NCBI RefSeq assembly: GCF_964355755.1
Contig: NC_092677.1
Span: 2,175,001 to 2,239,000, forward strand
Reading direction: 5' to 3'
DNA: 64,000 nt
Source: Antedon mediterranea
Lineage: Eukaryota > Echinodermata > Crinoidea > Comatulida > Antedonidae
Part shown: positions 16,999-35,343 of the stretch, one piece after another
How positions within the stretch are numbered: the first letter of the stretch is position 1
Layout of the letters: every line of letters begins with the position of its first letter
Program-made: the position numbers and the translations under genes
The notes under the pieces: model-generated
The model's database searches: none
Seen by the model: only the letters and a program-made list of their open reading frames with translations
What the model was told of the DNA's origin: nothing

Positions 16999-19900
16999 TT
17001 ATGGTTTCCATAAAAATAATGCAACAGCAGACACAGCTGAAAGACCTATCACTAGATATCCTGATCTGTAGAGCACATTCATGTTGAAGCCATACCCTCT
17101 ATCCCATATCTACACAGACACAATGTTAAACAGAGTTAGCAAAATATGTCTCTTATAAAGCTCTGGCTGCACTATCAAACTAGTTTGACAAAAGTGTGAT
17201 GTGCCCAAATATGGTAGTGATATGACATCATCACATCCATGTATGGCCACAACACATTTATTTGTCACATAAACTTTGATAGTGTAGACAGTAAAATAGA
17301 CAGAGCTTTATTCTAAATATGTGACTAATATCACATGTATCATTGATTAAATGTGCACTGAAATTAAATTTTGGACTATGTCACGATAATATTCTACTGC
17401 AGTTACTGCAGTAACAACATTTTAACCATTTTTTTCAATTATCAATTTTAATTAAATTATCAAGCAATTTTTTTTTTCTGGGTAATCATACACTGTATAT
17501 ATAGACTTCTACATTGAAACAAACTAAAATGATACGTTTACTGCAGTAAAAATTTAGTTACTGCAGTAAAAATTTAGTTACTGCAGTTACTTTCAATAGA
17601 ACAATGTTGACATAATCCTTTATATACCAACATTGATAGATGGAATGATAAGAAATAGTGTGACAGCCACTTACCAAATGCCTAACCTTTATATACCAAC
17701 ATTGATAGATGGAATGATATGAAATAGTGTGACAGCCACTTACCAAATGCCTAACCTTTATATACCAACATTGATAGATGGAATGATATGCAATATAGTC
17801 TGGGTTCCAGACGGAGTTTTGTCTTAATATTAGTTAAAAGATAAATATTTTGGCACAGATGGCGTTTCATACGTATACTACTTGATTTTGGATACTCCGT
17901 CTGGGGAAACACGCACAAGTCACGTGGTTTGACACCAAGAATTCTTGGTGCATACGATTATCCGGTTGACTAGTTTCAGCTGCATGCGATTGGCTACTCA
18001 CTCGTACACCGTGTAAATATTCATATTTCAGAATTTTAAAGACTCAACAACTAAGATGATGCGCATGCGCTATGTTACGTTTAGACAATGTGTACTTGGG
18101 TACATTTATGAAAGTTCTGAAGGCTAGAAATTATTTTATATGCCTAGTACTAGTAGTCTGGTAAACATTTGATGGGATCTTTGAAACATGAAAACTCGTC
18201 TTGATATATGATAGGCTAGCTTCTCCGCAAATCAAACATTGAATCAATCATTTATTACGCGGAGATAATTTTGATTTAATTCCCACCGAGACCCTGTCCT
18301 GTTCTGTGTGGTGGTGTAGCCCTGTTGTGTGCCGGTGGTATGTAATGTAGGCCTACTTCATTGGCGTTTTATTTGGCAGGTCATACACGCGAGTTGAGTA
18401 GGACCTACGAAAGAGGCCTAGGCCAAGGACTAAACAATTAATAAACAAAACAACTTGGCATTACTATTTTATATTTCAACAGTCTCGATCGTACATTAAG
18501 CACTGGTAGGCCTACGTACTCGATCTCTTTCATTTTGAAACAAAATGATCATTGGTTGATTCGAAATCCATATTTACATACCGCCCGCCCCATATAGCCA
18601 AATACGGTATGATAACCTACGTCATTCTTATCGTATGTTTGCGGTCTGCAAATCGATTTCTATACGTGTTTCACAAGTCTGTATTTTCAGACAAAAATCG
18701 CGGTCGAAATAAAAACAAATAAATAAAAAAAAAAGATAATACAGACTTCGGGCAAGTCTATATGCAATAGTGTGACAGCCACTTACCAAATGCCTAACCT
18801 TTATATACTAACATTGATAGATGGAATGATATGAAATAGTGTGACAGCCACTTACCAAATGTCTAACACCGTTGATTGAATGGTATAAAACACTGGCACT
18901 GAGTCCTGCTTTACAGGTCGTTATAAGAGCTGGACCTGCGGTCCACGACTTCACCTTTTCCAATGTGTCGGCAAAGTTTGTAGGTACCATCAGCATTGCA
19001 ATACCAAAGCCATAGATACCTTAGGTAAACAATATAAAGGTGAGTCCTGTATTCATTCTGAGTGTAACGTTATGAGCTGATATGAGCTCATTATACTTAA
19101 GCTCTGTCTACACTATCAAACTTTATGTGACAAAAAACTATGAGTGCCCATATGGACATGGTGATGTCATATCACTACCATAATTTGGCATATCACTGCC
19201 ATGTTTGGGAACATCACATTTTTTTTGTCAAACTAGTTTGATAGTGTAGACAGAGCCTAATCCTTGGCACTATGTATGGTAGGGTGGCCAGTTTCTTTCC
19301 ATGGCACCTTAAGTAAGTGAAATCATTATTTTTGTAAAATTAAAATTGCAAAATGGTCTATTCAAATCCGATTTTATTAATCTTCATTTTTCATGTTTTT
19401 TGGGGGACAATACATTGTTAAAATATTAATATCAAAATATTATAAATAGATTACTTTTATTTTTATGTGAAGTGCATAGAGGCTTTATGCATTATGTGCT
19501 TAAAAGCCTAAATTGATTATTATTAAACAGACCTGGTACCAAACATAAATCATTGGAATGGACTGTTAAATTGATTATTATTAAACAGACCTGGTACCAA
19601 ACATAAATCATTGGAATGGACTGTTAAATTGATTATTATTAAACAGACCTGGTACCAAACATAAATCATTGGAATGGACTGTTAAATTGATTATTATTAA
19701 ACAGACCTGGTACCAAACATAAATCATTGGAATGGACTGTTAAATTGATTATTATTAAACAGACCTGGTACCAAACATAAATCATTGGAATGGACTGTTA
19801 AATTGATTATTATTAAACAGACCTGGTACAAAACATAAATCATTGGAATGGACTGTTAAATTGATTATTATTAAACAGACCTGGTACCAAACATAAATCA

Positions 19901-21822
19901 TTGGAATGGACTGTTAAATTGATTATTATTAAACAGACCTGGTACCAAACATAAATCATTGGAATGGACTGTTAAATTGATTATTATTAAACAGACCTGG
20001 TACCAAACATAAATCATTGGAATGGACTGTTAAATTGATTATTATTAAACAGACCTGGTACCAAACATAAATCATTGGAATGGACTGTTAAATTGATTAT
20101 TATTAAACAGACCTGGTACCAAACATAAATCATTGGAATGGACTGTTAAATTGATTATTATTAAACAGACCTGGTACAAAACATAAATCATTGGAATGGA
20201 CTGTTAAATTGATTATTATTAAACAGACCTGGTACAAAACATAAATCATTGGAATGGACTGTTAAATTGATTATTATTAAACAGACCTGGTACCAAACAT
20301 AAATCATTGGAATGGACTGTTAAATTGATTATTATTAAACAGACCTGGTACAAAACATAAATCATTGGAATGGACTGTTAAATTGATTATTATTAAACAG
20401 ACCTGGTACCAAACATAAATCATTGGAATGGACTGTTAAATTGATTATTATTAAACAGACCTGGTACAAAACATAAATCATTGGAATGGACTGTTAAATT
20501 GATTATTATTAAACAGACCTGGTACAAAACATAAATCATTGGAATGGACTGTTAAATTGATTATTATTAAACAGACCTGGTACAAAACATAAATCATTGG
20601 AATGGACTGTTAAATTGATTATTATTAAACAGACCTGGTACAAAACATAAATCATTGGAATGGACTGTTAAATTGATTATTATTAAACAGACCTGGTACC
20701 AAACATAAATCATTGGAATGGACTGTTAAATTGATTATTATTAAACAGACCTGGTACCAAACATAAATCATTGGAATGGACTGTTAAATTGACACATACT
20801 GCGGTTCAATGTCAAACTAGTTATTTAACAATCTCACTTCCTGGTATTCTTGTTTTAACAGCTGATCTATCAAAACAGCTGTTGTTCTCCTTAAGATAGT
20901 GAAATAGTATAATGATAACAAAGGCCAATGCTAGGGTGTTACATAAATGTTATATAAGTAGTGTGAAAAGACACTTATGATGATGTCCTCACCATAACTG
21001 CCTGTTCACACTACTTTTTCAGGGGTAAAATGCATACACATTGGAGATTGGTAATTGTGTTCCTATATTATTCACTTTATTTAGAAGTACTCCTAATGCT
21101 CTGTCTACACTATCAAACTTTATGTGACAACATCTGATGTGAACATATATGGACATGATGATGACATATCCATACCATATTTGGGCATATCACTACCATA
21201 TTTGTGCACATCACACTTTTTTTGTCAAACTAGTTTGATAGTGTAGACAGAGCTTTACCTGTTGTTAGTGCTATGCCTGTTGCACGGTGACAGATTGACA
21301 TCACTGGAGGTAATTGCCATCTAGAGGGTTAATATAAAATACAGACTCATTGTTACTGATTATTATTAGCTATATTTTTAGCAAATTTGAAAAAAAATAA
21401 GAATAGAAGAAAATAAAACACTTGACTAAGACAACAGCAAAACCAGACAAATAAAATGAAATGGTTGATTGTTACCTCCAGATAGTGACATGAGGTGACA
21501 CTGGTCTACTGAGGCGTTCATTTCTTTTCCAAAATGCTTTCATTTCTTCTCTTGCAGTGGTTGCCATTCTGCACCTAAAATAGGCACAATGCATTAGTAA
21601 CAAATGGACCAAAAAAAACTCTTTAATTTAAATTAAGCATTCTCATTAACATATTATTTTTTTTATTCACATATATACAACTTAATCCCAACTTAATCCC
21701 AACTTAATCCCAACTTAATCCCAACCAAACTTGGAATGAACATCAATTCTTTCACTCTTACTTACTTTATAGCTTGCCTTGATTGTTGTAGTTGACGATA
21801 AAAATGTTGCCGACATGACGAC
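16999..21822 (-). CDS. SDHC: Succinate dehydrogenase cytochrome b560 subunit (SDHC)
   Basis: SDHC anchors complex II in the inner mitochondrial membrane, binds haem b with SDHD and forms the ubiquinone site. Exons on the reverse strand are 21766-21822, 21476-21574, 21259-21320, 18856-19019 and 16999-17109; all phases join and the stop is at 16999. Diagnostic segments are SRPVSPHVTIW, VMSICHRATGIAL, LYHSINGVRHL (the His before SINGVRHL is the expected haem ligand) and IWDRGYG. These exons encode about 164 residues, and the boundaries and phases equal those of vertebrate SDHC exons 2-6. The initiator exon is not certain: the donor GTGAGT at 23131 ends an in-phase frame (23132-23329), but its ATG would give an unusually long leader. 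Introns carry a 22-unit array, MITEs and a copied splice site. Confidence 0.92.
17156..17310. mobile_element. MITE family 1, copy 4
   Basis: Left end TAAAGCTCTGGCTGCACTAT, right end ATAGTGTAGACAGTAAAA then TAGACAGAGCTTTA, so the right terminus has a small duplication. It lies just outside the acceptor of the last SDHC exon. Confidence 0.9.
17385..17605. mobile_element. CTGCAG-rich MITE (family 3), copy 1
   Basis: Left end TATTCTACTGCAGTTACTGC, right end ACTGCAGTTACTTTCAATAG, inverted, with internal ACTGCAGTAAAAATTTAGTT duplicated. Related elements lie at 39715-39897 and (half) 45030-45108. It is in the last SDHC intron. Confidence 0.75.
17617..18865 (-). repeat. 69-bp tandem repeat copying the SDHC exon 5 donor
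   Basis: Units of 69 bp contain, on the reverse strand, GTTAGGCATTTG followed by GTAAGTGGCTGTCAC. This copies the last bases of SDHC exon 5 plus its 5' splice site. Exon/donor junctions lie at 18856 (genuine), 18787, 17744 and 17675. The outer pairs are exactly 69 apart. The middle gap of 1,043 equals 69 + 965 + 9, because an element is inserted there. Confidence 0.93.
17796..18760. mobile_element. 965-bp insertion with 9-bp target duplication
   Basis: TATGCAATA occurs at 17787-17795 and at 18761-18769, flanking the insert. Removing the insert and one copy restores the 69-bp array exactly. The insert begins TAGTCTGGGTTCCAGAC and ends AGACTTCGGGCAAGTCTA; each end can form a small hairpin. There is no long open frame, so it is non-autonomous. 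A 9-bp duplication suggests a Mutator-like or similar DNA transposon. Confidence 0.88.
19098..19259. mobile_element. MITE family 1, copy 5
   Basis: Left end TAAGCTCTGTCTACACTATC, right end GATAGTGTAGACAGAGCCTA. Nearly full-length consensus, in the intron before SDHC exon 5. Confidence 0.93.
19510..20785. repeat. 58-bp satellite-like array, 22 units
   Basis: Exactly 22 units of 58 bp (1,276 bp) starting AAATTGATTATTATTAAACA. The only recurrent difference is GGTACC versus GGTACA. In order the units read CCCCCA CCCCCA ACACAAAACC, so the first twelve form two six-unit higher-order repeats. It is intronic in SDHC. Confidence 0.97.
21094..21257. mobile_element. MITE family 1, copy 6, abutting an SDHC splice donor
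   Basis: Left end TAATGCTCTGTCTACACTAT, right end ATAGTGTAGACAGAGCTTTA. On the reverse strand the right terminus reads TAAAGCTCTG directly after the exon-proximal G, so donor positions +2 onward are element sequence. Confidence 0.93.
21680..21724. repeat. 11-bp short tandem repeat
   Basis: Four units of ACTTAATCCCA, between SDHC exons 2 and 3. Confidence 0.95.

Positions 21823-25423: not shown

Positions 25424-35343
<9,920 letters not shown>

Follow-up and report, generated by a model that had tools for sequence, protein, structure and literature searches.

The window, a 64,000-nt stretch of the crinoid Antedon mediterranea genome, carries on its minus strand a gene that domain and solved-chain similarity identify as a predicted SDHC, the succinate dehydrogenase cytochrome b560 subunit. 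The protein read from the joined exons matches the Pfam domain Sdh_cyt above cut-off (PF01127, E=1.3e-12) and, among PDB chains, the SDHC chain 8gs8_C (E=1.7e-18). Exon 5 (164 nt, 18856..19019, minus strand) was placed by tblastn with human SDHC, the Pfam domain, PDB chains and translation, and its 3' end is in phase 0, reading ..NGVRHL|. The coding part of exon 6 with its stop (|IWDRGYGF...LWKP*) occupies 16999..17109 on the same strand, its end being approximate to the stop codon. Between the two lies intron 5 (1746 nt, 17110..18855, minus strand), whose acceptor AG ends at 17110, where the original prediction had put it. Further exons were located upstream, near 21567-21478 and near 21319-21259, also on the minus strand. 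The exon 5/exon 6 junction is contiguous as HL|IWD, compared with HLMWD in the best-matching SDHC chain, and agrees with human SDHC. In human SDHC an intron presumably occupies this position (c.405), and together these observations give no indication of a new intron. A genome search for a second SDHC copy or retrocopy able to relieve the gene returned none, leaving a single SDHC locus, and SDHC is expected to be essential.

The end of exon 5 is repeated within the intron that follows it. Four near-identical donors had been predicted at 18856, 18787, 17744 and 17675. All four were located with their last exon-like bases at these positions, and they are identical, each reading TTG|GTAAGTGGCTGTCACACTATT on the minus strand. 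The 27-mer spanning the donor, CATTTGGTAAGTGGCTGTCACACTATT, has exactly four perfect matches in the 354-Mb genome, all at SDHC; no other genome matches were found at two or fewer mismatches, and a reversed-pattern control gave zero. When the whole array was used as a genome query, it matched at the SDHC locus only. The unit is 69 bp long and comprises 12 bases resembling the exon end followed by the first 57 intron bases. As had been claimed, then, the unit includes the terminal bases of exon 5, with one synonymous difference: the exon reads GTTAGACATTTG and units 2-4 read GTTAGGCATTTG, both encoding VRHL. Likewise, the claim that the repeat duplicates a real SDHC 5' splice site holds, the outermost copy being the one that conserves the protein, as judged by the HL|IWD match to human SDHC.

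Unit 1 (18799..18867, minus strand, as are all units) contains the genuine donor GT at 18855-18854 and an in-frame TAG at 18810-18808. The left part of unit 2 (18761..18798) has a decoy GT at 18786-18785 and terminates in a 9-bp target duplication, and its remainder (17756..17786) resumes past the right copy of that duplication. Units 3 (17687..17755) and 4 (17618..17686, the last of the array) have decoy GTs at 17743-17742 and 17674-17673. The units diverge from one another by 1-3 bases, Tandem Repeats Finder (TRF) reports a period of 69 with a 98% match, and unique sequence flanks the array. These data point to an intronic minisatellite, with head-to-tail copies above chance. Directly past the donor array, at 17538-17591, there is a short palindromic array of TTACTGCAGTAAAAATTTAG units.

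The span had been described as a single tandem array, a description that fails at unit 2, which is interrupted by a 965-bp insertion (17796..18760, minus strand) with ends TAGACTTGCCC...CCCAGACTA. A perfect 9-bp target duplication, TATTGCATA, stands on both sides of it (left copy 18761..18769, right copy 17787..17795, minus strand). With the flanks rejoined, omitting the element and one target copy, the donor spacing becomes 69-69-69. Since the 1-kb gap separating the two pairs of repeats is this transposon, the idea that the gap serves a function was ruled out. With the whole region as query, at least about 40 other genome copies, of 94-98% identity, match only about 18760-17796; this number is a lower bound, as the best candidates alone were scored. 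Family members have the ends TAGACTTGCCC and CCCAGACTA in common, and a perfect 9-bp target duplication flanks 22 of the 26 examined. The terminal bases are inverted (TAGACT / TAGTCT). Because no stop-free frame exceeds 58 codons, the element is non-autonomous. Its many copies, fixed ends and constant duplication length identify it as a MITE-like DNA transposon, and it resembles MITE-like transposons with 9-bp duplications in being short, noncoding and abundant, with inverted terminal bases and the same duplication length. Membership of the Mutator superfamily is suggested solely by the 9-bp duplication, a length that we take to be Mutator-like.

The insertion also gives a relative date. Both target copies contain a G that is unique to unit 2 (TATTGCATA compared with TATTTCATA), and the array therefore predates the insertion. 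The window copy differs from the family majority by 1.05% and has three private changes, two of them adjacent. From this divergence, the array-bearing allele is probably long-standing, a point in favour of its viability.

What use of a decoy would yield can be read from the translation. In frame, unit 1 reads VSGCHTISYHSIYQC*YIKVRHL, and unit 1 is included in every decoy transcript. The original prediction was of insertions of 69 bases, a multiple of three, with no stop inside a unit. The length stands for decoy 18787, which adds 69 nt in frame, and not for the two inner decoys: 17744 adds 1112 nt (2 mod 3, with 22 stops in frame) and 17675 adds 1181 nt (2 mod 3, with 24 stops in frame). The absence of stops is untrue of unit 1, where the TAG at 18810-18808 ends the 18787 product after 15 extra residues. 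By translation, the predicted product is missing the exon 6 portion and with it the last membrane helix, and truncated SDHC arising from decoy use would be expected to amount to a loss of function. In mRNA spliced from 18787, the TAG would lie 21-24 nt ahead of the new last junction. Provided that exon 6 is the last exon, the customary 50-nt rule predicts that this mRNA would avoid decay and be translated into truncated protein.

Could read-through nevertheless provide heritable in-frame SDHC isoforms, as had been proposed, with 23 residues added per unit? The 69-bp unit length fits this idea, and this frame is free of stops in units 3 and 4. The TAG in unit 1 and the out-of-frame, stop-rich inner decoys nonetheless mean that this allele would give no lengthened in-frame SDHC. 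The codon at the position of the TAG is TGG in units 2-4, so that a stop-free allele with TGG in unit 1 is conceivable; the proposal would apply only to such unseen alleles, and we regard it as extremely improbable. An assembly artefact or mis-assembled repeat is also very improbable. The copy number of tandem arrays is frequently unreliable in assemblies, but here the units can be told apart by differences at fixed sites, unit 2 is anchored by the transposon together with its pair of identical target copies, and unique sequence bounds the array.

The choice among the four donors is the central question. Predicted U1 pairing is -10.2 kcal/mol at each of them, with an identical U1 window, and a local cause of donor choice through U1 pairing was ruled out for want of any pairing difference. 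Donor choice must therefore depend on wider context. RNA folding gave the outer donor no advantage in predicted accessibility, although the values are noisy, and a search of the region for structured RNA gave no Rfam match. By conserved junction and frame, the conserved SDHC protein would come only from the outer donor (last exon base 18856) joined to exon 6.

The closest precedent identified, a human one, shows what such a duplication can do. MSH6 c.3936_4001+8dup is a 74-bp tandem duplication of the end of exon 9 and its donor; the inner donor is used or the exon is skipped, the normal transcript is absent, and the variant is pathogenic (PMC9818763). As in SDHC, an exon end and its 5' splice site have been copied in tandem into the intron, which sets identical donors in competition. 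The arrangements differ in that MSH6 has two donors, with 66 exon and 8 intron bases in the copy (PMC9818763), its first donor thus retaining just 8 intron bases, and SDHC has four, with 12 exon and 57 intron bases. The 66 exon bases in the MSH6 copy perhaps bring enhancers with them. The two also differ in outcome, in that the MSH6 allele is pathogenic (PMC9818763) and the SDHC allele, known here from its sequence, is seemingly settled.

If the SDHC array behaved in part as MSH6 does, the allele would be hypomorphic: decoy use would be substantial, a share of transcripts would pass through 18787 and end at the TAG, and SDHC output would be reduced. The identical U1 pairing at all donors and the complete mis-splicing in MSH6 (PMC9818763) are in line with this possibility, as are reporters with competing donors, in which silencers and enhancers between the sites determine intron-proximal choice (PMC1877881). 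The equal pairing and the MSH6 precedent also mean that a strain on splicing, which had been proposed as well, may exist. Against a hypomorphic allele, a single SDHC locus was found for a gene expected to be essential, and the array was in place before a transposon that has since accumulated changes of its own. Moreover, in contrast to MSH6, 57 nt of native intron still follow the outer donor, and the decoys have just 12 exon bases. We consider a hypomorphic allele unlikely, though more probable than the other alternatives. As a point against the account favoured below, the assembled haplotype may carry a damaged allele. Another reading, that four identical donors stay functional because splicing selects the outermost by position (exon definition or first-come), with the array tuning SDHC output by way of truncated transcripts in a manner that varies with copy number, is improbable.

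Because the numbers of intron and exon bases differ from those of MSH6, and because the array appears old, we judge the outer donor at 18856 likely to be the working donor for functional mRNA. In the account we favour, a 69-bp segment across the exon-5/intron-5 border would have been tandemly duplicated and then expanded to four units. Later, as the target duplications show, the 965-bp non-autonomous DNA transposon inserted into unit 2. The outermost donor preserves SDHC, as judged by junction and frame, and would make the functional mRNA, and any decoy use would lead to a protein ending at the unit 1 TAG without the last membrane helix. The array is thus probably a tolerated intronic minisatellite, or scar, that leaks dead-end transcripts at most and gives no in-frame isoforms.

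The kind of event is already known, as splice-border tandem duplication and as transposon insertion, and this instance is new. An open-access word search, limited in reach, found no intronic minisatellite repeating a donor in a normal gene. In potato RdRp, an exon-intron border is likewise duplicated in tandem and splice signals are multiplied (PMC4974935); in SDHC, by contrast, the donors alone are duplicated, the ancestral intron position is retained and no new intron is evident. Tandem alternative 5' splice sites also place near-identical donors in competition at one exon end, but those sites are 3-6 nt apart and transcript-supported (PMC2423196), whereas the SDHC donors are at least 69 nt apart and predicted. 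The row of four donors offers a natural experiment in how a cell selects among identical 5' splice sites, since the donors match over at least 27 bases and the correct one lies farthest from the acceptor in a gene expected to be essential. As the comparable human duplication in MSH6 abolishes correct splicing, how the SDHC outer donor wins is a testable question.

Other repeats occur in and near SDHC. The exon 4 donor, CAG|GTAAAGCTCTG, is adjoined by a MITE-like element roughly 160 bp long (21093-21259, minus strand), with core ends GCTCTGTCTACACTATC and apparently TA-flanked, and bases +4 to +6 of that donor appear to derive from the end of the element. This element has at least 40 genome copies; two more lie in SDHC introns (19096-19261 and 17156-17310), one of which terminates upstream of the exon 6 acceptor, roughly 50 bases away. 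The SDHC intron preceding exon 5 contains a 58-bp tandem repeat of 22 copies with 99% identity (19509-20792). Finally, 25679-25882 holds 2.8 copies of a 72-bp repeat (91% match), which may be coding, as its period is a multiple of three.
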